A DNA stretch of 64,000 nucleotides from a virus. The notes beneath the pieces were generated by a model. That model worked only from the letters and a program-made list of their open reading frames with translations. It had not been told where the DNA came from and ran no database searches. Of the stretch, positions 8,496 through 51,955 are shown piece by piece (position 1 is the first letter of the stretch; every line of letters starts with the position of its first letter). The position numbers were made by a program, and so were the translations under genes. The stretch lies in IMG/VR virus record IMGVR_UViG_3300050166_000039, positions 18,059 to 82,058 of that record. One strand, given 5' to 3'.

Positions 8496-9707
8496 ATGGA
8501 ATTAAACAAAGAAATCTTAGACAAGTACGTAGCCGAGGGTTGGTTAAGCCGACAAGTGCACCCAACCCTGCCTCTCAGCATCTACAATTACACACAAGAG
8601 ACCCAATATGAAAAGTATTGGGATTCAATTACTCTTGCTTGTAGAGGCGTGGTGGTCGACCATGAAACCGGAGAAGTGCTTGTTAGACCGTTTCCTAAGT
8701 TCTTTAACTGGGAAGAGGTAGCAGACCGAGTACCAGTGACAGGAGATTATGTCTACGTACAAGAGAAGATGGATGGCTCCTTAGGAATTCTTTTCTATTA
8801 TGATAGGCGCTTAACTCTCGAAGAGAGGTACAATATCTGGTTCAATAACAACGTTGTCTCAGGCATGGAGCGAAACTTTGACCCGACTAAGTTACCTGAC
8901 TTCAACGACCCTTATTACGAGCCAACACCTGTTACAAGAGGTGAGTGGGTAATGGCAACTCGTGGTAGTTTTACCTCAGAGCAAGCTGTAAAGGGTTTAG
9001 CCATCGCCAAGAGACTATTTAATCTTGACGCCTTTAAGAAGTCAGTGACCTATCTATGTGAAATAATCTACCCCGAGAACAGGATAGTAGTTGATTACAG
9101 TGAGGAGAAACTAGTGTTCTTAGGAGCTTCAATTCCGAGGACAGAGTTAAACTGGACCGTAGCCACAACCATTTTTATTGAATCTGAAATTAAGCCCGAG
9201 TATATTGTAAAGACAGAGCAATACTTTCTGTTTGGTGAGGGCATGTACAACGCCTTGAAAGAGAAGAACCTGGAGAACAAGGAGGGTTATGTGTTACGCT
9301 TTCATCCCAGCAATTTCAGGATGAAGATTAAGTTTGAAGACTATATAAAACTTCACAGAGTGTTGACACAGTGCTCATCCTATGATATCTGGGAAAACTT
9401 AAAACAGTTTGATAAACTACCCAACGAGCTATTAGATAACATCCCCGATGAATTCTATAAGTGGGTAGAAGGGTTAGAAATCTCAATTCGTCTTAACTTT
9501 AATAAGATTAAGATAGAGCATGAAGAGATGGTAAAGAAGGCCAGGGAAGAGTTCACTGAGAAGAGAGACTTTGCCCTATGGGTCAACTCACTGAACAAGG
9601 CCGGAATAAATCACAGTCTCTTATTTGCAATCTGGGACGGAAAGGATGCGGCTCCCTATATCTGGCCGATGGTGAAACCAAGATATGAGAAACCATTTCA
9701 GAAATAA
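8496..9707 (+). CDS. RNA ligase, T4 Rnl1-like
   Basis: 403 residues. Nucleotidyltransferase motif I EKMDGS with the AMP-accepting Lys91, preceded by LACRGVVVD as in T4 RnlA. Motif III/IIIa region YLCEIIYPENRIVVDY, motif IV EGYVLR, motif V MKIKFEDY. Family members seal 5'-phosphate and 3'-OH RNA ends with ATP; T4 RnlA repairs tRNA cut in the anticodon loop by host nucleases. It is the first gene behind its own promoter. A second ligase of another class follows at 10657. Confidence 0.9.
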   Translation: MELNKEILDKYVAEGWLSRQVHPTLPLSIYNYTQETQYEKYWDSITLACRGVVVDHETGEVLVRPFPKFFNWEEVADRVPVTGDYVYVQEKMDGSLGILFYYDRRLTLEERYNIWFNNNVVSGMERNFDPTKLPDFNDPYYEPTPVTRGEWVMATRGSFTSEQAVKGLAIAKRLFNLDAFKKSVTYLCEIIYPENRIVVDYSEEKLVFLGASIPRTELNWTVATTIFIESEIKPEYIVKTEQYFLFGEGMYNALKEKNLENKEGYVLRFHPSNFRMKIKFEDYIKLHRVLTQCSSYDIWENLKQFDKLPNELLDNIPDEFYKWVEGLEISIRLNFNKIKIEHEEMVKKAREEFTEKRDFALWVNSLNKAGINHSLLFAIWDGKDAAPYIWPMVKPRYEKPFQK

Positions 9708-10656: not shown

Positions 10657-11742
10657 ATGAAAAGAAAATTAGCAAGCATTCAAAAAGTAGCCAGTATTAG
10701 ACCGATTGAAGGTGCTGATGCCATCGAGGTGGCTCGTATCAATAACTGGGATGTTGTAGTGAAAAAGGGAGAGTACAAACCTGGCTATCTATGCGTTTAC
10801 TGTGAGATTGACTCCTTCTTACCAATTAAAGAGGAGTTCGAGTTCTTGCGTAAGAGTTCTTATAAGAAGATGGTAGACCGTGAAGGTTTCTGTTTAAGAA
10901 CAATTAAGTTAAGAGGTCAAATAAGTCAGGGTCTTTTATTGCCGCTGTCAGTTTTAGAAGGAGAAGATGAGATGAAGATTGGCACTTGCACCCAGGAAAA
11001 TGGGATATTGCAGTTAGGACCCTATGATGACGCTCTAGTCATTGAAGAAGGTGTAGATGTGACAGACTTATTAGGTATTGTTAAGTATGAAGCACCAATT
11101 CCGGCCGAGTTAAGCGGATTGGTTAAAGGCTCATTTCCTTCCTTCTTGAGAAAAACCGACGAGGAGCGGGTTCAAAACCTGAGCAAGGAGTACGATGAAT
11201 GGGTAAGAGAGGGTTTGGATTTCTATGTGACCGAGAAATTAGATGGTAGCTCAATTACTTTCTACTTAAAGGATGGAGAGTTTGGTGTCTGCTCTAGAAA
11301 CTTAGACCTATTAGAGACCAAAGAGAACACACTATGGAGAGTGGCCAGAGAAATGAAGATTGAGGAGAAGTTACGGGCCAATGATAACCACAACATGGCT
11401 CTACAAGGAGAGTTGATTGGTGAAGGCATTCAAGGCAACCCTTATAAAATCAAAGGACAGACTGTTAAATTCTTTAACGCTTTCGATATTGATAGACAAG
11501 AGTATTATGGCTTACCGATGTTCCTGGCTCTTTTCCGTCACCAGTTCCAATTAGATACGGTGCCAATCTTGACTAATTTAACAATGAAGTTGCCGGCCAC
11601 CATCGATGAGTGCTTAGCCTTCGCAGACTCTAAATCAGTGCTGAATCCCGGTTTTGACAGAAAAGGAGTTGTATTTAGAACAATGAATCGCAAGATTAGC
11701 TTTAAGGCTATCTCAAATAAATTTTTAATGAACGAAAAATAA
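10657..11742 (+). CDS. RNA ligase, DRB0094 (Deinococcus Rnl) type
   Basis: 361 residues. N-terminal OB-like domain (about 1-110; IQKVASIRPIEGAD, CVYCEIDSFLP) as in Deinococcus radiodurans Rnl, then the catalytic core with motif I EKLDGSS (Lys194), SRNLDL, LQGELIGEGIQGN (motif IIIa region), KGVVFR (motif IV) and ISFKAISNKFL (motif V). This class is known for sealing breaks where the 3'-OH strand is RNA. Its own promoter and immediate vicinity to the Rnl1-like gene point to a dedicated RNA repair or joining role. Confidence 0.9.
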   Translation: MKRKLASIQKVASIRPIEGADAIEVARINNWDVVVKKGEYKPGYLCVYCEIDSFLPIKEEFEFLRKSSYKKMVDREGFCLRTIKLRGQISQGLLLPLSVLEGEDEMKIGTCTQENGILQLGPYDDALVIEEGVDVTDLLGIVKYEAPIPAELSGLVKGSFPSFLRKTDEERVQNLSKEYDEWVREGLDFYVTEKLDGSSITFYLKDGEFGVCSRNLDLLETKENTLWRVAREMKIEEKLRANDNHNMALQGELIGEGIQGNPYKIKGQTVKFFNAFDIDRQEYYGLPMFLALFRHQFQLDTVPILTNLTMKLPATIDECLAFADSKSVLNPGFDRKGVVFRTMNRKISFKAISNKFLMNEK

Positions 11743-17899: not shown

Positions 17900-18470
17900 C
17901 GATATTTTTGTATTCAAAAACGCGGTAACTGGTCAGCTCTTCACTAAGTTAAGAGAGCTGTTTAATACGGCTCCGATTAATAGAGATCAGTTTAAGAAAG
18001 AGCTAGAAGAGAGTCATGTTATTGAGCTGAATCAGGTACTCAAAGAGAAGATAGAAGAGCCTATTTACAAGTACCTATTAGACTTAAAACTGGACTCCAG
18101 ACCCGATCTATTAGATTATAGTGGATGCTTTAACACTGATCTTGAATATTATGAGAAGTATAAAGAGTTTAGAAACTCTTTAAGAGACTCGAATCCAATT
18201 CAGGTTGAAACAGCAATGGCCAGAGAGTTACATAGAGGAAATTTAGTATACTATAGTAATTTCGTAGAATGGAAAGGCCATCTCAATAAATTCGGTATCT
18301 TCGTTAATGTCTCAGAGGGCGGCGAGAACACAACAACCCTAAAGTTTCCTATACAACAACAAGAGTGCACTCTATTACAAGGAGATATTGTAGTTTCACC
18401 CGGAGGTATCACACATCCATACTTAATAGATGTTATTAACGGCAAATTAAAATTCATCCAGGCACTATGA
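17883..18470 (+). CDS. 2OG-oxygenase (prolyl-4-hydroxylase)-like protein, copy A
   Basis: 195 residues. C-terminal EGGENTTTLKFP, LLQGDIVVSPGG and THPYLIDVINGKLKF follow the double-stranded beta-helix layout of P4H-type oxygenases, with His and Lys at the iron/2OG positions. The proximal HxD is not obvious. A paralogue is at 20104 with the same length and ending. The next gene, an SGNH-like protein, starts 4 bases inside. Confidence 0.5.
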   Translation: MEILGNDIFVFKNAVTGQLFTKLRELFNTAPINRDQFKKELEESHVIELNQVLKEKIEEPIYKYLLDLKLDSRPDLLDYSGCFNTDLEYYEKYKEFRNSLRDSNPIQVETAMARELHRGNLVYYSNFVEWKGHLNKFGIFVNVSEGGENTTTLKFPIQQQECTLLQGDIVVSPGGITHPYLIDVINGKLKFIQAL

Positions 18471-31776: not shown

Positions 31777-31878
31777 AGTCAGGTGGCGGAATGGTAGACG
31801 CAGCCCTGCACACAGGAACTGAATCGAATATGAGTGCAGCATTTAAGATTTGTACAGGTTCGAATCCTGTCCTGGCTA
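31777..31878 (+). tRNA. Interrupted tRNA-like gene 1 (Leu-type ends)
   Basis: 102 nt. Acceptor AGTCAGG/CCTGGCT, class II D-arm GCG...CGC, T arm ACAGG/CCTGT with TTCGAAT are all intact. The anticodon region is a CTGCAC/GTGCAG stem with a 22-nt loop in place of a 7-nt loop; no normal anticodon can be assigned. Not simple decay, since the stems pair fully. Confidence 0.6.
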
Positions 31879-31882
31879 CGAA

Positions 31883-31978
31883 GATATACACAAAAGTGTT
31901 GTGAGCAACTCAAATTAGTACGGCATTGACCGAGCGAAGTTTTTAGGTTGTAGAGGCAGTGGAGCGACACCACATATC
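31883..31978 (+). ncRNA. Structured spacer
   Basis: GATAT/ATATC closing pair enclosing hairpins ACAC-AAAA-GTGT, GTTG-TGAG-CAAC and GTGG/CCAC. Confidence 0.32.
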
Positions 31979-31999
31979 AACTTATTTAGATTGAATAAT

Positions 32000-32133
32000 A
32001 GTCAGGTGGCGGAATGGTAGACGCAAAAAGCCAACTCGTATGTGGAAGCGAGTCTAAATAATACTATCCCTGGTTCGTGGCTCGCATTAGCGGCTGGCAC
32101 CAAGGCTTACAGGTTCGAATCCTGTCCTGACTA
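32000..32133 (+). tRNA. Interrupted tRNA-like gene 2 (Leu-type ends)
   Basis: 134 nt. Acceptor AGTCAGG/CCTGACT is perfect; D and T arms are identical to gene 1. Between them AAGCC/GGCTT encloses about 70 nt containing ACTCG/CGAGT and CGC-ATTA-GCG hairpins. Roughly 50 nt longer than any normal class II tRNA. Confidence 0.6.
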
Positions 32134-32134
32134 C

Positions 32135-32196
32135 GGTGATGTTTGGCAACTACGCTGATTAGATGAAAGTTGTTGACAGTTTGGAAAGACAAACAA
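32135..32196 (+). ncRNA. Structured spacer
   Basis: Hairpins CAACT/AGTTG and GTTTG-GAAAGA-CAAAC between two interrupted tRNA-like genes. Confidence 0.3.
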
Positions 32197-32198
32197 AT

Positions 32199-32323
32199 AG
32201 TCAGGTGGCGAAACGGTTAGACGCTAATTGAAGGAATAAAGTTCACGACCTACCATACAGGCTAATGGGACTTCAATTAATAAGGTTGCAAACTTAATAC
32301 CCGTTCGAATCGGGTCCTGACAC
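32199..32323 (+). tRNA. Interrupted tRNA-like gene 3
   Basis: 125 nt. Acceptor AGTCAGG/CCTGACA (A1-A72 mismatch), T arm ACCCG/CGGGT, variable arm TAAG/CTTA. The anticodon stem is extended to a perfect 9 bp, TAATTGAAG/CTTCAATTA, around a 37-nt loop that contains GGAATAAAG. No U33 at the expected place, so it cannot decode as written. Confidence 0.6.
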
Positions 32324-32369
32324 TATGGTTTGGTTAGTACTATACAACGAATAGAGGAAGTACAAATAT

Positions 32370-32496
32370 TGTCAAGAGGCGAGAGGAACACGTCCCGAAA
32401 CATTGATACAAAACTTTCTGACAGAAGAGCAACGGAGTCTCTGCTTTATCAATGTACTGATGGAGACTATCACTGGTTCGAATCCAGTATTGACAA
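32370..32496 (+). tRNA. Interrupted tRNA-like gene 4
   Basis: 127 nt. Acceptor TGTCAAG/ATTGACA (one mismatch), T arm ACTGG/CCAGT with TTCGAAT, short variable arm GAT/ATC. Anticodon stem is a perfect 9 bp, ACATTGATA/TATCAATGT, enclosing 38 nt with an AGCA/TGCT hairpin. Confidence 0.55.
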
Positions 32497-32569
32497 CAAG
32501 GAGTTCCCAATCTCAAGTGCTGGTTAACCCTAAAAAGTTATCCGTATGAGCCCATCAAAATTGGAATTT

Positions 32570-32651
32570 GCCTGTATCGCATAGCGGCAATTGCAAGGCA
32601 CTGTAAATGCCTTCTCGTTTGAGTTCGGAGGTTCGAGTCCTTCTGCAGGCA
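32570..32651 (+). tRNA. tRNA-Tyr(GUA), copy 1
   Basis: Acceptor GCCTGTA/TGCAGGC, anticodon loop CTGTAAA in stem AGGCA/TGCCT, long variable arm, T-loop TTCGAGT. Confidence 0.92.
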
Positions 32652-32708
32652 CGATTAAACAAAAATATTTACGTGAGTATAATTAGTACAACTATTAAAA
32701 TTAAAATT

Positions 32709-32921
32709 ATGACATCTAACGAATTCACTTATTGGTTACAAGGTTTTTTTGAAATTTCAAAAGACGCTAATGTAAAAGAACTTGATGAAGTGCAAACTCA
32801 AATTATCAAAGACCATTTGAAATTAGTTTTTAAAAAAGAAACACCTAATAGAACATGGTCCGATACCGGTAACCATGGAACATGTGGAAGAGCTGGAACA
32901 GTGGACACGTTTGGATTATAA
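32709..32921 (+). CDS. Small conserved phage protein embedded in the tRNA array
   Basis: 70 residues starting MTSNEFTYWLQGFFEISKDA, a recognisable small phage family. A longer frame from 32607 would begin inside tRNA-Tyr and is rejected. The stop lies 3 bases before the second tRNA-Tyr. Function unknown. Confidence 0.78.
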   Translation: MTSNEFTYWLQGFFEISKDANVKELDEVQTQIIKDHLKLVFKKETPNRTWSDTGNHGTCGRAGTVDTFGL

Positions 32922-32924
32922 TTT

Positions 32925-33005
32925 GGGAGTGTTGAGCAACGGTTGCTTAGCAGACTGTAAATCTGTGGTCTTCGGACATTGGCGGTTCGAATCCGTCCAC
33001 TCCCA
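32925..33005 (+). tRNA. tRNA-Tyr(GUA), copy 2
   Basis: Acceptor GGGAGTG/CACTCCC, anticodon loop CTGTAAA in stem GCAGA/TCTGT, class II variable arm, T-loop TTCGAAT. Clearly different from copy 1. Confidence 0.92.
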
Positions 33006-33157
33006 CAAACAAGGTGACGCTACGGTCGTAAGATTCCGGAATCGAGAAGACAAAAAGCCTAAGTGTACAGATGAGCTCCTACAGCCTTGGACTACTATTA
33101 TTGAATGATACGAGCCCTCAAAGTTCGAAAGGAGTCAGATAGTAGTCAAACTTAAAA
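33006..33157 (+). other. Structured spacer
   Basis: Holds the palindrome GATTCCGGAATC (33032-33043) and a 9-bp helix GACTACTAT/ATAGTAGTC closing 33090-33147. No open frame or tRNA arm. Confidence 0.35.
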
Positions 33158-33257
33158 GTATTAGTAATTCAGTGGTAAGACTGGCGTCCCCTCATGGTTA
33201 AGGGCCTAAAAGCTGGGAATAAGACGATCGCCGTTGGTTCGAGTCCAACCTAATACT
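33158..33257 (+). tRNA. Interrupted tRNA-like gene 5 (class I ends)
   Basis: 100 nt. Acceptor GTATTAG/CTAATAC perfect, T arm GTTGG/CCAAC with TTCGAGT. The anticodon arm CGTC/GACG holds 34 nt including CCCT/AGGG and GGGAATAAGACGATCG. Confidence 0.58.
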
Positions 33258-33263
33258 TTAAAT

Positions 33264-33334
33264 ACGTCTATGGTGCAATGGTAGCATGCAACTCTCCAAA
33301 AGTTTTGATGTGGGTTCGAATCCTACTAGACGTG
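33264..33334 (+). tRNA. tRNA-Trp(CCA)
   Basis: Acceptor ACGTCTA/TAGACGT, anticodon loop CTCCAAA, T arm GTGGG/CCTAC, discriminator G as in tRNA-Trp. One mismatch in the anticodon stem. Confidence 0.88.
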
Positions 33335-33397
33335 CAAATAGTTTTATAGGTCGTTCTGTCCTTGGGTTCTATGAATCAAAAACCCTAAAAAAGGCCA

Positions 33398-33471
33398 GGA
33401 CTCGTAGCGAAGAAGGTTATCGCAGCTCGCTCATAACGAGAAGATCGTAGGTTCGAGCCCTACCGGGTCCA
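33398..33471 (+). tRNA. tRNA-Met(CAU) or Ile2(CAU)
   Basis: Acceptor GGACTCG/CGGGTCC, D-stem GCGA/TCGC, anticodon loop CTCATAA, T arm GTAGG/CCTAC. CAU can mean elongator Met or lysidine-modified Ile; not decided by sequence alone. Confidence 0.88.
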
Positions 33472-33476
33472 CATTT

Positions 33477-33548
33477 GATTCTTTAGGCTAACGGATAAAC
33501 CTCTCGGCTACGAACCGAGCATTGAATGTTCGAATCATTCAGGAATCA
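33477..33548 (+). tRNA. tRNA-Arg(ACG)
   Basis: Acceptor GATTCTT/AGGAATC, anticodon loop CTACGAA in stem CTCGG/CCGAG, T arm GAATG/CATTC. A34 would need deamination to inosine. Confidence 0.9.
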
Positions 33549-33556
33549 CAATACAT

Positions 33557-33679
33557 GATTGTGTAAGTGTACGGCAGCACTGCCCACCGGTAAATTGGGT
33601 GCCTTTTAAGGCTAGGTTAATTTAAAGATGATGAAGTATCGATCAAGTAGTCATCGTGGTTCGATTCCCCTCACAGTCA
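33557..33679 (+). tRNA. Interrupted tRNA-like gene 6
   Basis: 123 nt. Acceptor GATTGTG/CACAGTC, D-stem AGTG/CACT and a T-loop TTCGATT with imperfect stem. Interior carries CCCA/TGGG, GCCT/AGGC and GATGA/TCATC helices. The weakest of the set. Confidence 0.45.
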
Positions 33680-33709
33680 CTGAGAGAAAAGCGGAAAGTA
33701 ATAATTGCG

Positions 33710-33781
33710 CGGCGATTAGTGGATTGGTCACCACACTGGCCACACGGGCCGGGGAAGCAGGTTCGATTCCTGCATTGTCGT
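33710..33781 (+). tRNA. tRNA-Val(CAC)-like with unusual A33
   Basis: 72 nt, acceptor CGGCGAT/ATTGTCG, D-stem GTGG/CCAC, anticodon stem CTGGC/GCCGG, loop CACACGG, T arm GCAGG/CCTGC. Position 33 is A in place of the near-invariant U, so decoding is doubtful. Confidence 0.6.
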
Positions 33782-33799
33782 TATAAAGTGCTGGACGCA

Positions 33800-33911
33800 G
33801 TAAAAGAAACCGATGAGTAGTAACGTGACAAACATTTAAGTTGCAACTAAAGTGTTTGGTGTAGTTAAGTCTTACATGGATTCGCGGTCTTAGGTAAGAT
33901 GTTTCTTTTAC
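33800..33911 (+). ncRNA. Structured RNA closed by an 11-bp helix
   Basis: GTAAAAGAAAC pairs perfectly with GTTTCTTTTAC 90 nt later; inside are CAAACA/TGTTTG and TCTTAC/GTAAGA hairpins. GCTCTTTTT follows. Not a tRNA. One of the clearest structured spacers. Confidence 0.5.
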
Positions 33912-33971
33912 GCTCTTTTTAAAAGTTTTTACGGTGGTTCTGGTTCTTCAAAAACGCTATCACCTCCATCA

Positions 33972-34045
33972 GACTCCGTAGCTCAGTTGGTAGATGCACC
34001 TCACTTTTAATGAGGGGGTCAATGGTTCGAGTCCATTCGGGGTCA
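33972..34045 (+). tRNA. tRNA-Lys(UUU)
   Basis: Acceptor GACTCCG/CGGGGTC, anticodon loop CTTTTAA in stem CCTCA/TGAGG, T arm AATGG/CCATT. Confidence 0.93.
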
Positions 34046-34051
34046 CAATAT

Positions 34052-34145
34052 GCTTCATGCACAATCTTACGATCTCTCAGTTAAAAGCTGTCGTAAGCGT
34101 AAATCGGCACTCCAATACGTTTGTCAGTTGTGAATTACATGAAGC
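34052..34145 (+). ncRNA. Structured RNA closed by an 8-bp helix
   Basis: GCTTCATG/CATGAAGC perfect closing helix, with CACAA/TTGTG, CTTACGA/TCGTAAG and CGTA/TACG inside. No tRNA arms. Confidence 0.48.
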
Positions 34146-34150
34146 GCCAT

Positions 34151-34225
34151 GCACCTTTAGCTCAGTTGGTTTAGAGCACTGCTTTTACACAGCAGGGGTC
34201 GGAGGTTCGAATCCTTCAAGGTGCA
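34151..34225 (+). tRNA. tRNA-Val(UAC)
   Basis: Acceptor GCACCTT/AAGGTGC, D-stem GCTC/GAGC, anticodon loop TTTACAC in stem CTGCT/AGCAG. Confidence 0.94.
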
Positions 34226-34234
34226 CTGTGAAAT

Positions 34235-34308
34235 GGTGAGTGTAGCTCAATCGGTAGAGCGCTGGTTTGTGGTGCCAGAGGTAGTGGGATCGTAACCCAT
34301 CATTTACC
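34235..34308 (+). tRNA. tRNA-His(GUG)
   Basis: Acceptor GTGAGTG/CATTTAC with an encoded G at -1 opposite C73, the His identity pair. Anticodon loop TTGTGGT. The T-loop ATCGTAA is unusual. Confidence 0.9.
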
Positions 34309-34313
34309 CCAAT

Positions 34314-34398
34314 GGAAGTTTGTCCGAGTGGCTTATGGTGACACTTTGCTAAAGTGTTGGATGTAACAGTCCCACAGGTTCGAATCCTGTAACTTCCT
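34314..34398 (+). tRNA. tRNA-Ser(GCU)
   Basis: 85 nt class II. Acceptor GGAAGTT/AACTTCC, anticodon loop TTGCTAA in stem ACACT/AGTGT, long variable arm, T arm ACAGG/CCTGT. A natural substrate for the phage SerRS. Confidence 0.92.
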
Positions 34399-34425
34399 CA
34401 ATGACAAAAAATAATCGGTAAAAGA

Positions 34426-34458
34426 TTTTTATTTGTCGAAACTTTTAGTTATATTTAC
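34426..34458 (+). promoter_or_regulatory. Stand-alone promoter for tRNA cluster 3
   Basis: T-run at 34426 and TATATTTAC at 34450-34458; boxA-like leader 21 nt downstream, same spacing as at 31560. Confidence 0.8.
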
Positions 34459-34475
34459 ATATAATTAAAAGATTT

Positions 34476-34500
34476 AGAGTTCTTTGATGTATTGGTAGAT
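34476..34500 (+). promoter_or_regulatory. boxA-like antitermination leader, copy 3
   Basis: AGAGTTCTTTGATGTATTGG between promoter and tRNA-Leu(UAG). Confidence 0.58.
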
Positions 34501-34508
34501 TAAAAAAT

Positions 34509-34582
34509 GCTCGTATGGTGGAACTGGAAGACACACCAGATTTAGGCTCTGGGTTTTGTAGGTTCGACTCCTACTATGAGTA
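34509..34582 (+). tRNA. tRNA-Leu(UAG) with short variable loop
   Basis: Acceptor GCTCGTA/TATGAGT, anticodon loop TTTAGGC in stem CCAGA/TCTGG, T arm GTAGG/CCTAC. The variable loop is only GTTTT, whereas bacterial tRNA-Leu normally has a long arm. Confidence 0.87.
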
Positions 34583-34583
34583 C

Positions 34584-34704
34584 AAGAGAGATTAGTGAAG
34601 CTGTAGTGATGAGCTTACGAGGTATAGGTTGGAAAAAAGGTTAGTAGTACGACTTTAAGCCTGCACTCATCATCAGTAACCTTGAAAGACCCGAAGTCTC
34701 TCTT
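34584..34704 (+). ncRNA. Structured RNA closed by an 8-bp helix
   Basis: AAGAGAGA/TCTCTCTT closing helix followed by T-rich sequence, and TGATGAG/CTCATCA nested inside. May act as a terminator-like or processing element. Confidence 0.45.
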
Positions 34705-34709
34705 TTTAT

Positions 34710-34780
34710 TACCCTATGGTGTAACGGTAACACAACTGTTTTTGGTGCAGTTATTGGTGGTTCGAATCCATCTAGGGTAA
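34710..34780 (+). tRNA. tRNA-Gln(UUG)
   Basis: Acceptor TACCCTA/TAGGGTA, D-stem GTGT/ACAC, anticodon loop TTTTGGT in stem ACTGT/GCAGT. Confidence 0.93.
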
Positions 34781-34795
34781 CCATCGTCTATATAC

Positions 34796-34867
34796 TGCGA
34801 CGTAGCTCAGAGGCAGAGCAGGGAGCTGTTAACTCCAAGGTCGGGATTTCGATATTCCCCGTTGCAG
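34796..34867 (+). tRNA. tRNA-Asn(GUU)
   Basis: Acceptor TGCGACG/CGTTGCA, D-stem GCTC/GAGC, anticodon loop CTGTTAA, discriminator G. One mismatch in each of the anticodon and T stems. Confidence 0.88.
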
Positions 34868-34878
34868 CAATTAAATAT

Positions 34879-34954
34879 GCTCCGTTAGGCAAATGGTTAA
34901 GCCGCCTCTCTTTCTAAGAGGAAATTAAGGGTTCGATCCCCTTACGGAGTACCA
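34879..34954 (+). tRNA. tRNA-Glu(UUC), CCA encoded
   Basis: Acceptor GCTCCGT/ACGGAGT, anticodon loop CTTTCTA in stem CCTCT/AGAGG, T arm AAGGG/CCCTT, discriminator A then CCA at 34952-34954. Confidence 0.94.
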
Positions 34955-35218
34955 TGAGTAAGAGATACTCAGCAGTCTTTTATCCAAGACTCATTTAACA
35001 ATGGATAGGGCATGGACTTTTCGCCCTGGATACTAGTCTCATGGGAACAAAGGAACGGGGACACGGTTCCTTCCCAGTAAGTGTTGACTTTTTAAGCGGT
35101 AAGACGCGTTGGGTTTTTGAAAGCAAAAACTGTGAATATCTACTTACTATAATCTCAGGTGAGGAAAGAAGTTCTGAGGTTGGCGAGCTCTTCTATAAAA
35201 AAGCAATCCATCCACCAT
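34955..35218 (+). other. 264-nt structured spacer without a credible gene
   Basis: Contains hairpins GAGTA/TACTC, AGTCTT/AAGACT, GGGC/GCCC, AAGGAAC/GTTCCTT and CTCAG/CTGAG. An open frame crosses it but runs into a tRNA and has no homology I recognise. Confidence 0.4.
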
Positions 35219-35303
35219 GGTTAGGTGGCGGAATGGTAGACGCAACGTGGGACCTTCTGTTGGTGCAGCACGATAGATACAGGTTCGAATCCTGTCCTGA
35301 CTA
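35219..35303 (+). tRNA. Leu-type tRNA-like gene 7, normal length, anticodon unclear
   Basis: 85 nt. Acceptor GGTTAGG/CCTGACT, the same D arm and T arm as interrupted genes 1 and 2. The anticodon region pairs best as CAACG/TGTTG with a 10-nt loop, so no standard anticodon is assigned. Confidence 0.6.
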
Positions 35304-35317
35304 CAAAATAAATTATT

Positions 35318-35515
35318 ATGTTTAAAATAGGAGAAAAGGTAAAATTAACGGGAAATCCATTGGATGAACAATTGGGTGAATTTATCATACCAGGTATTAA
35401 AACAATAACCGATATAAAAGACATTATAAACATTGAATATACTTCTAGACAATGGGTAAAAATATCAGAATATAATGATTGGATAGATTCTAATTGGTTT
35501 AAAAAAATAATATAG
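35318..35515 (+). CDS. Small SH3-like hypothetical protein
   Basis: 65 residues, MFKIGEKVKLTGNPLDE..., beta-rich start typical of small SH3-like phage proteins. Good A-rich leader. Its TAG stop overlaps the first two bases of the following tRNA-like gene. Confidence 0.7.
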   Translation: MFKIGEKVKLTGNPLDEQLGEFIIPGIKTITDIKDIINIEYTSRQWVKISEYNDWIDSNWFKKII

Positions 35516-35682
35516 TCAGGTGGCGGAATGGTTTAGGTTCACAATATGTGGTAAAACGATGAAAGTTTCCAACCAATGGTAGACGCAACAGTTGCTATCG
35601 GAGAAATTAGGTGGGAAAAGTAATCTAACGACTTTAATGTGAGCTTACCACCCTCGTACAGGTTCGAATCCTGTTCTGACTG
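35514..35682 (+). tRNA. Interrupted tRNA-like gene 8, insertion in D-loop
   Basis: 169 nt. Acceptor AGTCAGG/TCTGACT and T arm ACAGG/CCTGT. The D-loop is broken after GGCGGAATGG by 48 nt ending in a second AATGG, after which TAGACGC completes a normal Leu-type D arm. The insert folds as GGTT/AACC around two hairpins. A second expansion, with GGTGG/CCACC, fills the anticodon region. Confidence 0.6.
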
Positions 35683-35691
35683 CAAAATAAT

Positions 35692-35777
35692 TAGAGAGAA
35701 TGTGGGTTCGAGTCCCACCTGGTCTATCCGGTGAGGATGGGCCGGTAGTGGAAAGGGATAAAGCACTCTATTTATTA
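35692..35777 (+). tRNA. Candidate circularly permuted tRNA-Ile(UAU)
   Basis: The 3' half comes first: TAGAG (anticodon stem), AGAAT, T arm GTGGG/CCCAC with TTCGAGT, acceptor CTGGTCT and A73 (35692-35726). A 12-nt linker follows, then the 5' half: acceptor GGGCCGG (pairs fully, three G-U), TA, D region, CTCTA and TTTATTA (35739-35777). Rejoined it gives a 74-nt tRNA with anticodon stem CTCTA/TAGAG and loop TTTATTA (UAU). The D-stem is weak. Confidence 0.55.
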
Positions 35778-35789
35778 AAGTATTGTATC

Positions 35790-36110
35790 AAATGTGCAGT
35801 GAAAATTGATGTAGGCATACATTAGTGAGGTGGGTCCGATTCCCGTTTTAATTCCTAACTATGGAGGAAGCCAAGTAACTGAGAACACATTATAGCCGGA
35901 TGGGTTGTGCACCTTGTCTAAGAGACCCTAATAGTTCCTAATAGGTCGGTATGGAACTGATACATAAATTATAGGTTGATTGGGGAATGATTATGTCGAT
36001 AGTTCGAGAGTGAATGCTGACTGACATAATCGGAGTTTAGAAGTATTCACCAGAGTAAAGCCAATCATAAAAGTAGATGTCCACTGAACCATCTTCTACT
36101 TTCCTAAATT
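35790..36110 (+). other. 320-nt structured stretch without a credible gene
   Basis: Contains a T-arm-like GTGGG-TCCGATT-CCCGT (35830-35846) without a matching acceptor, hairpins TTCCT/AGGAA and AGTTCC/GGAACT, a 9-bp helix GATTATGTC/GACATAATC (35989-36031), and AAAGTAGATG/CATC..CTACTTT just before tRNA-Thr. Confidence 0.4.
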
Positions 36111-36183
36111 GCTTCCATAGCTCAATTGGTAGAGCCCTCGATTTGTAATCGAGAGGTTGTTGGTTCGAGTCCAACTGGAAGCT
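36111..36183 (+). tRNA. tRNA-Thr(UGU)
   Basis: Acceptor GCTTCCA/TGGAAGC, D-stem GCTC/GAGC, anticodon loop TTTGTAA in stem CTCGA/TCGAG, T arm GTTGG/CCAAC. Confidence 0.94.
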
Positions 36184-36184
36184 C

Positions 36185-36312
36185 AATGTAATTAACATAA
36201 TGTCCTTAGCGGGAGAGCCTAATATGTTACGGATAATCCTTCGGTGATATGTGATGTGGTAACGTGGAAACAAGAGTAAGAGGATTTGAGTTCCACCTAT
36301 GTTAGTTACATT
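36185..36312 (+). ncRNA. Structured RNA closed by a 15-bp helix
   Basis: AATGTAATTAACATA pairs with TATGTTAGTTACATT (one G-U) across 98 nt; inside are GGAT-A-ATCC and GTGGAA/TTCCAC. Longest closing helix in the tRNA region. Confidence 0.5.
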
Positions 36313-36317
36313 ATTTT

Positions 36318-36463
36318 GGTTCTATAGTTGTTTAGGTCGCCTCCTAAAACAATGAGTGGGCTAACGTGACGGTCAACCGTAAAGGCTCTAAGGTGTACAC
36401 GATAAGGAGTAGTTGGTTGAAGTAAGTGACTTAGCGAGATGGGTTCGATTCCCATTAGAACTG
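36318..36463 (+). tRNA. Interrupted tRNA-like gene 9, expanded D-loop and anticodon arm
   Basis: 146 nt. Acceptor GGTTCTA/TAGAACT and T arm ATGGG/CCCAT are perfect. D-stem GTTG/CAAT carries a 19-nt loop extended by a TTTAGG/CCTAAA helix. Anticodon stem GCTAA/TTAGC encloses about 65 nt with ACGGT/ACCGT. Confidence 0.55.
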
Positions 36464-40271: not shown

Positions 40272-40422
40272 TGTAGAGTGGCGAAATTGGCAGACGCGCA
40301 CTTCCTGTCTCGAAGGTGGGGATAACGAAATAAAGTAAGGATATCGGGGTAGACCACCAGCTTGCAAGCGCTATTGTCCTTAACCTAATTGCCCCTTGGT
40401 GGTTCGACTCCACCCTCTACAG
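40272..40422 (+). tRNA. tRNA-like gene with giant variable arm
   Basis: 151 nt. Acceptor TGTAGAG/CTCTACA and class II D arm GCG..CGC, T arm GGTGG/CCACC are perfect. A CACTTC-CTGTCTC-GAAGGTG arm follows the D arm; then about 75 nt form an oversized variable arm with GGGG/CCCC and TAAGGA/TCCTTA helices and a GCTTGCAAGC tip. Loop would read GUC if used, odd for a class II tRNA. Confidence 0.6.
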
Positions 40423-42244: not shown

Positions 42245-42811
42245 ATGAAACTAATTAAAGACTATGTGACCTGGTTATTTGAGTCTCAACAAGAAGAGGT
42301 CAATGAAGAGAAGCAGGGCTATGATTATGGCTGTGCGATGCTATACTTTGATTTTCCAGAGATGGCAGAACTGCACGATAAGATCGATCCTGAGCACGTG
42401 TTTGTGGACCCGAAAGACCCTAGCTTTGGTCTCGAGACCGAGCCACATTGCACTCTATTATATGGTCTACACGATGATGTAACGACGGAAGTGGTAGAGA
42501 ACGTAATGAAGAACTACGCCTTTGGTAACTGCACGATTCAGAACGCTTCTCTATTTGAGAATGAGAAGTTTGATGTGCTTAAATTTGATGTAGCCGGTGA
42601 TAATTTACATGACTGTAACAAGGAGCTGTGTAAGCTGCCTCACACTACGAATTTTCCAGACTATCACCCACACATGACGGTCGCATACCTGAAACCGGGA
42701 ATGGGAAAAGAGTATGCTGACATGTTTAGAGATAGAATGCACGAGTTGAAGCCTAAATATATCGTCTACTCAAAACCCGATGGCAGTAAAGATAGAATTG
42801 AATTAAGATAA
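42245..42811 (+). CDS. 2H phosphoesterase (LigT/2'-5' RNA ligase-like)
   Basis: 188 residues with the two HxT motifs of the family: EPHCTLL (His68, Thr70) and HPHMTVAYL (His143, Thr145). 2H enzymes open 2',3'-cyclic phosphates or make/break 2'-5' bonds on RNA, a step needed before some ligation reactions. Together with the kinase-like protein and two RNA ligases it completes a plausible RNA end-healing set. Confidence 0.88.
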   Translation: MKLIKDYVTWLFESQQEEVNEEKQGYDYGCAMLYFDFPEMAELHDKIDPEHVFVDPKDPSFGLETEPHCTLLYGLHDDVTTEVVENVMKNYAFGNCTIQNASLFENEKFDVLKFDVAGDNLHDCNKELCKLPHTTNFPDYHPHMTVAYLKPGMGKEYADMFRDRMHELKPKYIVYSKPDGSKDRIELR

Positions 42812-51617: not shown

Positions 51618-51922
51618 GGGGGTATAGCTCAGTTGGCTTAGAGCACCTGCCTTGCACGCAGGGGGTCGTGGGTTGATAAAGAGCCCATTTAAGTAGTGAT
51701 ACTTAAATAAAAACTGGATGAATTGCTGGAAATCTAAGTCAGAAATGATATGACAATCAGCAGCCAAGCTTAAGATACATCTTAAGAAGGTTCAGAGACT
51801 AGTGGAGAAGTAAAGTCTTCTTAATAACCACATTAGCGTCCAGCATCTCATTAGAGATGAAGATATAGTCCGACACTCTTTCGAAAGAAGAGATTAACCG
51901 TAGTCGAATCCCTCTACCTCCA
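51618..51922 (+). tRNA. tRNA-Ala(UGC) interrupted by a group I intron in the T-loop
   Basis: Exon 1 51618-51673: acceptor GGGGGTA, D arm, anticodon loop CTTGCAC, 5' T-stem and first T of the T-loop. Exon 2 51904-51922: TCGAAT, T-stem, acceptor TACCTCC and A. Joined they give a normal T-loop TTCGAAT and fully paired acceptor; one T-T mismatch in the T-stem. Confidence 0.88.
51674..51903 (+). ncRNA. Group I intron in tRNA-Ala
   Basis: 230 nt. The last six exon bases GTGGGT pair with GCCCAT in the intron, placing the expected U-G pair at the 5' splice site. The conserved AAGATATAGTCC (51860-51871) is the core signature, and the intron ends in G. No open frame inside; an HNH endonuclease lies 110 nt downstream. 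Confidence 0.85.
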
Positions 51923-51924
51923 CT

Positions 51925-51955
51925 AAGGCCTGTGAAATTTCACAGGCCTTTTTTA
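51925..51955 (+). terminator. Intrinsic terminator after tRNA-Ala
   Basis: AAGGCCTGTGAAA/TTTCACAGGCCTT, a 13-bp perfect stem, then TTTT. Confidence 0.9.

Follow-up and report, generated by a model that had tools for sequence, protein, structure and literature searches.

What kind of RNA is made from a gene that begins and ends like a transfer RNA (tRNA) gene and carries something else in between? The question is raised by the IMG/VR virus record IMGVR_UViG_3300050166_000039 (G000, 82,058 bases), of which we analyzed a stretch of 64 kilobases (kb; positions 18,059 to 82,058; hereafter the window). Beside 22 tRNAs recognized by ARAGORN, the window carries tRNA-like genes whose acceptor and T arms pair like those of a tRNA around an interior without the usual anticodon arm. 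As judged from sequence comparison, we see an even chance that these genes specify functional non-decoding RNAs, likely decoys for factors that read the top half of a tRNA.

Paired ends and oversized interiors in the window

A preliminary description of the window had noted tRNA-like genes with intact ends and oversized interiors, and a strict geometric test bears this out. The test requires U8, an acceptor stem with all seven pairs (7/7), a T stem with all five (5/5) and a TTCRA loop, and its background was taken from 60 dinucleotide shuffles of the window and from the reverse strand. It gave 27 matches on the plus strand, none on the minus strand and a mean of 0.07 per shuffle; six matches (31777, 32000, 33158, 35514, 36318 and 40272) exceed 90 nucleotides (nt), against 0.05 expected. 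The genes, several of which belong to a family starting with AGTCAGG, are:

31777-31878 (+): AGTCAGG-family tRNA-like gene, 102 nt; acceptor 7/7, T stem 5/5, A73; Rfam tRNA model 38 bits
32000-32133 (+): AGTCAGG-family tRNA-like gene, 134 nt; acceptor 7/7, T stem 5/5, A73
32199-32323 (+): AGTCAGG-family tRNA-like gene, 125 nt; acceptor 6/7, T stem 5/5
32369-32497 (+): tRNA-like gene (given as 32370 in the preliminary description and below); acceptor 7/7 in the 32369 register, then without U8
33158-33257 (+): family X tRNA-like gene, 100 nt; strong covariation in an alignment of 29 sequences (A1)
33557-33679 (+): tRNA-like gene with enlarged variable region, a weak member; acceptor 7/7, T stem 3/5
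35219-35303 (+): AGTCAGG-type gene of normal size, 85 nt, without anticodon arm; acceptor 7/7, T stem 5/5; tRNA model 43 bits
35514-35682 (+): AGTCAGG-family tRNA-like gene with long interior, 169 nt; acceptor 7/7, T stem 5/5
36318-36463 (+): tRNA-like gene, 146 nt; acceptor 7/7, T stem 5/5
40272-40422 (+): family C tRNA-like gene with long variable region, 151 nt; acceptor 7/7, T stem 5/5; homologs in phages L118 and L394 and in Pedobacter

The pairing of the ends, described earlier as almost perfect, is complete in six genes and near-perfect in 32199 and 32370, but the T stem of 33557 falls short. The gene at 35219 is an additional member that had not been listed before. The extra length lies where it had been placed, namely in the D loop (35514, as an insertion between AATGGT direct repeats), in the anticodon domain (31777, 32199, 32370) or in the variable region (33557, 40272). 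At the anticodon position, 31777 has a 22-nt loop closed by the stem CTGCAC/GTGCAG. A stem of 9 base pairs (bp) had been reported for this position; it is present in 32199 (TAATTGAAG/CTTCAATTA, loop of 37 nt), whereas 32370 has 8 bp and a loop of 38 nt, within which AGTCTC is able to pair with GAGACT of the variable arm. Hairpin insertions in the D loop are present also in L454 and L123.

None of the listed oversized genes was called by ARAGORN. The Rfam tRNA model scored above threshold at 31777, 33158 and 35219, no other Rfam family matched the listed genes, and over the whole window Rfam gave nothing beyond tRNA and one group I intron.

Turnover in a close relative

The closest comparison is with L489, part of a phage contig of 183 kb, in which long stretches across the cluster are approximately 86-96% identical. 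The gene at 33158 is 99% identical there, with stems intact, and 32370 is 95.5% identical, with acceptor and T stem unchanged. The genes at 31777, 32000, 32199 and 33557 are absent, and those at 35219 and 35514 retain their ends around unrelated interiors, even though the flanking DNA is approximately 88-95% identical. The tRNA-like family turns over faster than the surrounding DNA. Random mutation of acceptor and T stems in related phages had been named as an observation that would speak against the preliminary description. In L489 the T stems are intact and the acceptor of the 36318 homolog (74.7% identical) changes in a compensated manner, with G2-C71 replaced by A2-U71 and G1-U72 by G1-C72.

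The AGTCAGG family in other phages

A protein-based search through two flanking proteins found no relatives, but searches with DNA patterns did. IMG/VR was searched for a Leu-type D arm and, separated from it by 50-80 nt, a T arm, the acceptor being left unspecified (pattern 1), for the same kind of arrangement with a class I D arm (pattern 2) and for a 25-mer from the window's own genes (pattern 3). Each pattern was found in at least 120 contigs; these counts are lower bounds, and the gene tallies that follow are among the matches listed.

For pattern 1, 104 of the 121 viral matches combine an acceptor stem of at least 6/7 with a T stem of at least 4/5, where random 7-mers would reach 6/7 in about 1% of cases (our own arithmetic, GU allowed). 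In GTDB genomes the same pattern gave 108 stretches, a mixed set that also contains partial duplications and ordinary tRNAs whose variable arm is long. Paired ends were present in 96 of 122 matches to pattern 2, and a canonical anticodon arm was found in 9 and lacking in 78 of its 87 distinct genes. Among 332 distinct Leu-frame genes, 273 are without an anticodon arm of a 5-bp stem and a 7-nt loop; 164 of these 273 start with AGTCAGG, as against 3 of the 59 that have the arm.

The AGTCAGG genes (n = 162) have a complete acceptor stem in 142 cases and a complete T stem in 161, A73 in 141 and U48 in 149, and an anticodon arm in almost none, with interiors ranging from 33 to 229 nt. When only the two ends were used as query, 224 genes with the 5' end and a further 26 orphan 3' ends were recovered. 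The D arm is Leu-type in 153 of the 224; the other 71 include Gln- or Ala-like D arms, D-loop hairpins and 4-nt loops replacing the anticodon loop. What is constant is the acceptor with the T arm, the D arm being mostly retained and the anticodon and variable regions substituted. Several genes of 92-93 nt (L368:13264, L388:2809, L405:4030, L456:486 and 921) enclose another complete T-arm hairpin.

The genes occupy short gaps between co-directional genes, and 52 of 124 AGTCAGG loci are without any ordinary tRNA. A tRNA-like gene of this design stands alone, and unannotated, within an operon of the cultured Bacteroides phage BS-TP2 (19550-19657); a member (L149) is present also in Phocaeicola vulgatus ATCC 8482, and a few were found in all in cultured Bacteroides phages and prophages. 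No full match to the AGTCAGG sequence was found among 50,697 INPHARED phage records. A host origin of the AGTCAGG sequence was considered and rejected, as none of 395 Bacteroidota genomes contains it. Taken together, the tRNA-like genes apparently form a large RNA group, with hundreds of phage genes, that has not been described previously; searches of openly licensed full texts gave no description of such RNAs, which may have been named elsewhere.

A pseudoknot in place of the anticodon arm

The common bottom half is an H-type pseudoknot, in which a stem at the anticodon position is combined with a second stem that joins its loop to the strand just 5' of the T stem; extra hairpins or a tetraloop are the alternatives. 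The simplest members, with an interior of 33 nt (L122, L357, L435), are of tRNA size and yet fold in this way, with CTGG/CCAG and CGGG/CCCG or with CGGG/CCCG and ATGG/CCAT. A looser geometry distinguished the genes poorly from shuffled sequences, so a tight geometry and a test on homologs were adopted. Under the tight geometry, the mean for the best pseudoknot is -14.6 kcal/mol, compared to -10.6 in shuffled sequences, and 47% of genes reach -16, compared to 16%. In the homolog test a structure is drawn from one member and scored on its homologs: double changes kept pairing in 15 cases and broke it in 2, whereas a control with slid partners kept 12 and broke 25. For the second stem of the pseudoknot, 11 were kept and none broken. 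A Bacteroides subfamily of five sequences only (L021, L022, L026, L149, L192) has 6 compensated pairs, and none in any slid version.

This structure bears on the proposal, made in the preliminary description, that the interiors are small introns spliced out by a phage or host activity; under this reading the two RNA ligases of the phage would reseal the halves. Proteins encoded in the window that enter this and later arguments are:

1216-2493: phage-encoded SerRS
8496-9707: RNA ligase
10657-11742: RNA ligase

Beside the ligases, the position of some interiors in the anticodon loop is as expected for introns, and a genuine group I intron interrupts a tRNA-Ala gene (51618-51929) of this phage. 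However, phage RNA ligases are accounted for by tRNA repair, no splicing endonuclease was found among those open reading frames that were scanned with Pfam, and members of normal size lack the anticodon arm as well. In an exon-junction test, one internal segment was deleted and an anticodon arm of 5 bp and 7 nt with U33 was sought; the arm was restored in 9 of 137 AGTCAGG genes, compared to 9.7 from shuffles and 27 of 27 in the positive control. With restoration at chance, and with pseudoknotted members that are already tRNA-sized, we rejected the intron reading and consider it highly improbable.

Families X and C

Family X comprises approximately 100-nt genes with a class I frame and is represented in the window by 33158. 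Its invariant core is UCA-GG-AAGG-CC-A-GC; in 33158 the conserved core, written as CUCAUGGYNAAGGRCC-AAA-GC, stands where the anticodon arm would be. Across the 29 sequences, 91.6% of cells are paired and double changes occur at 18 of 26 pairs, with a covariation of 0.568, as against 0.163 in shuffled and at most 0.11 in slid alignments. Rfam recognized the tRNA frame alone.

A core of this kind, which is probably bound by a ligand or protein, would suit a tRNA-shaped scaffold that stabilizes a variable regulatory RNA and presents it to varied targets, on which this bottom half would act through base pairing or by binding protein; the diverse, structured bottom halves would fit this as well. 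In the AGTCAGG family, however, it is the top half and not the payload that stays invariant, and no target emerged from the analysis; we regard a scaffold as rather unlikely.

Covariation also bears on the possibility that the genes are decaying and functionless tRNA genes, their ends homogenized by recombination among repeated tRNA copies. The very high identity of the ends in DNA, the gain, loss and interior replacement that separate relatives, and the 26 orphan 3' ends could all result from such a process. On the other hand, compensatory changes are found in the acceptor, the T stem, the pseudoknot and the core helices, one fold recurs in unrelated phages, the family X core is invariant, and many loci have no tRNA array. 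Because pairing is maintained, ordinary tRNAs are lacking from 52 of the 124 AGTCAGG loci and the BS-TP2 gene is alone in its operon, this explanation fails in our view and is very doubtful. The earlier argument that decay would not spare both ends, and the earlier reading as RNAs without a decoding role, are both supported by the covariation in relatives.

Family C, represented by 40272, has relatives in the phages L118 and L394 and as tandem copies in Pedobacter chromosomes. All its members retain a 7-nt loop, CUGUCUC or UUGUCUC, together with G73 and a long variable arm; in 40272 the loop is CUGUCUC and the variable arm of approximately 85 nt is followed by a terminator-like hairpin. Family C could be an unusual decoding tRNA.

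Other tRNA-like groups were encountered as well. In a class-I-framed group (L347, L306, L270, L284, L301, L286, L256), a hairpin followed by ACAGCAA replaces the anticodon arm. Genes resembling tRNA-His (L192:3322-3453 and L026:6302-6421, both minus strand) carry an extra T-arm hairpin within the anticodon loop; in L192 this loop has in addition a stretch that resembles a D arm. The arrangement looks like a permuted tRNA nested within the gene. Leu-framed tRNAs with Ala anticodons (GGC, CGC) occur in L171, L175, L203, L205, L213 and L214, mainly gammaproteobacterial metagenome-assembled genomes.

A conserved RNA next to the tRNA-like genes

The normal-sized gene at 35219 is directly preceded by a second conserved element:

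34955-35218 (+): S RNA, conserved non-coding RNA with a core of approximately 210 nt, directly 5' of the 35219 gene (alignment A6)

The S RNA has no match in Rfam and was found in 21 other loci (L422, L443, L466, L440 and L489 among them), in 8 of which it lies 4-6 nt from an AGTCAGG gene. Because of this arrangement, the main rival to a non-decoding mimic is that the tRNA-like ends punctuate transcripts, as cut sites for the host's RNase P and RNase Z, which free neighboring RNAs (S RNA, tRNAs, mRNAs) and leave the interior free. Constant ends around hypervariable interiors, and the location in short gaps between co-directional genes, are what such a role would predict. Cutting sites would not need the pairing constraint seen in the interiors, though; a particular acceptor sequence is retained with A73 and U48, and the S RNA is missing at most loci. 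We consider this explanation somewhat unlikely.

Comparison with known RNA kinds

The tRNA-like genes are not canonical tRNAs, intron-bearing tRNAs, transfer-messenger RNAs (tmRNAs) or YrlA RNAs. With canonical class II tRNA-Leu they share the acceptor, the T arm, a D arm with A15-U48 and, in most members, A73; in contrast to it, they lack the 5-bp/7-nt anticodon arm, engage the variable region in a pseudoknot with the loop at the anticodon position and start with an AGTCAGG sequence that is foreign to the Bacteroidota genomes searched. They thus resemble canonical tRNAs in acceptor and T stem and differ in the anticodon arm. Unconstrained loss of stem pairing, as in a tRNA pseudogene, is not what is observed, as the acceptor and interior helices show compensation.

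Like tmRNA, the genes join a tRNA top half to a pseudoknotted part that is not tRNA; unlike it, their interiors are mostly 33-100 nt with no tag reading frame, and a D arm is present. The tmRNA model matched none of the tRNA-like genes beyond a 17-nt fragment at 13 bits. The YrlA module of bacterial Y RNAs is likewise a non-decoding tRNA mimic, whereas the phage genes keep the ordinary 5' to 3' order of a tRNA, and the YrlA model did not match them. Group I intron-containing tRNAs also have tRNA ends with extra internal sequence, but the listed genes have neither an intron-model match nor an exon junction that restores the arm; the sole match of the Rfam group I intron model in the window is at 51664-51893. 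The phage-encoded tRNAs of two reports (PMC10264068, PMC11555353) evade tRNA-cleaving defences, counter host tRNA damage and decode, whereas the genes described here have no anticodon. Overall, the tRNA-like genes work most like tRNA mimics.

A proposed non-decoding tRNA mimic

At the level of sequence, the genes combine constant ends and a missing anticodon arm with covariation of the pseudoknot and of family X, and with rapid gain, loss and replacement of interiors. A constant top half above a disabled bottom half is in keeping with tRNA-like maturation of the RNA, followed by binding to a reader of the top half. In the proposed mechanism, the top half (acceptor, T arm and discriminator, in most cases with the D-arm elbow) is kept in tRNA form, so that an expressed transcript should be trimmed by RNase P and by RNase Z or exonucleases and then receive CCA. 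Proteins that know a tRNA by its top half would bind the mature RNA. Its bottom half is exchanged for structures unable to decode, namely the H-type pseudoknot, the family X core, D-loop hairpins or a 4-nt loop, and anticodon nucleases would find no anticodon loop to cleave.

We are less sure of the function itself. The RNA may act as a decoy or sponge for host factors that grip the acceptor, T arm and elbow of a tRNA; we favor a synthetase, EF-Tu or a nuclease of the tRNA tail, and tRNA-modifying toxins of defence systems are further candidates. The nuclease decoy, also raised in the preliminary description, is possible. The same description had suggested ligands of SerRS, an enzyme that the phage does encode, but this suggestion found no support, as the common members have the Leu-type A73, A15 and U48. 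The conservation of A73 and U48 only suggests LeuRS.

Several observations weigh against non-decoding decoys. The AGTCAGG sequence is conserved beyond its pairing, which a generic decoy of tRNA shape would not need, and D arms vary in 71 of the 224 end-matched genes. No common neighboring protein or defence gene was found, the commonest family being present at 13 of 127 loci. Finally, a 5-bp/7-nt arm is present in a few members (L358 and L489, with the loop TTCTCTG, and family C), some of which might decode.

Phage tRNA clusters are usually read as a supply of codons or as replacements for cleaved tRNAs. The phage genes described here, hundreds in number, retain the top half of a tRNA and discard decoding, in folds that neither ARAGORN nor Rfam names as a family, so that surveys of phage tRNAs miss or mislabel a sizeable share of tRNA-like genes. 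If matured and bound by tRNA enzymes, they would make up a new class of RNA in viruses. More broadly, and tentatively, the non-decoding tRNA mimics that phages keep may be a large class in rapid evolution, with a constant top half on which pseudoknotted bottom halves can be exchanged, matured by the host's tRNA enzymes and directed, in anti-defence or host takeover, against factors that recognize the top half. The cultured members (BS-TP2, Phocaeicola vulgatus ATCC 8482) make the function directly testable.

Other elements in the window and nearby loci

The tRNA-Ala(UGC) gene at 51618-51929 has its T loop split by a group I intron of approximately 230 nt (104 bits) and is recognized by ARAGORN once the intron is excised. 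A weak YrlA match in the spacer beside the cluster, at 35679-35792 (24.6 bits, E 0.005; gathering threshold 69), is 94% conserved in L489. The window also encodes thymidylate synthase, identified by a Pfam scan of its open reading frames, and, at 42245-42811, a small protein similar to Acb1, which acts against the cyclic oligonucleotide-based antiphage signaling system (anti-CBASS), and to 2H phosphoesterases. Near tRNAs in other phage contigs we observed a bacterial RNase P RNA (L293:2375-2772) and a GOLLD RNA (L290:2958-3395).

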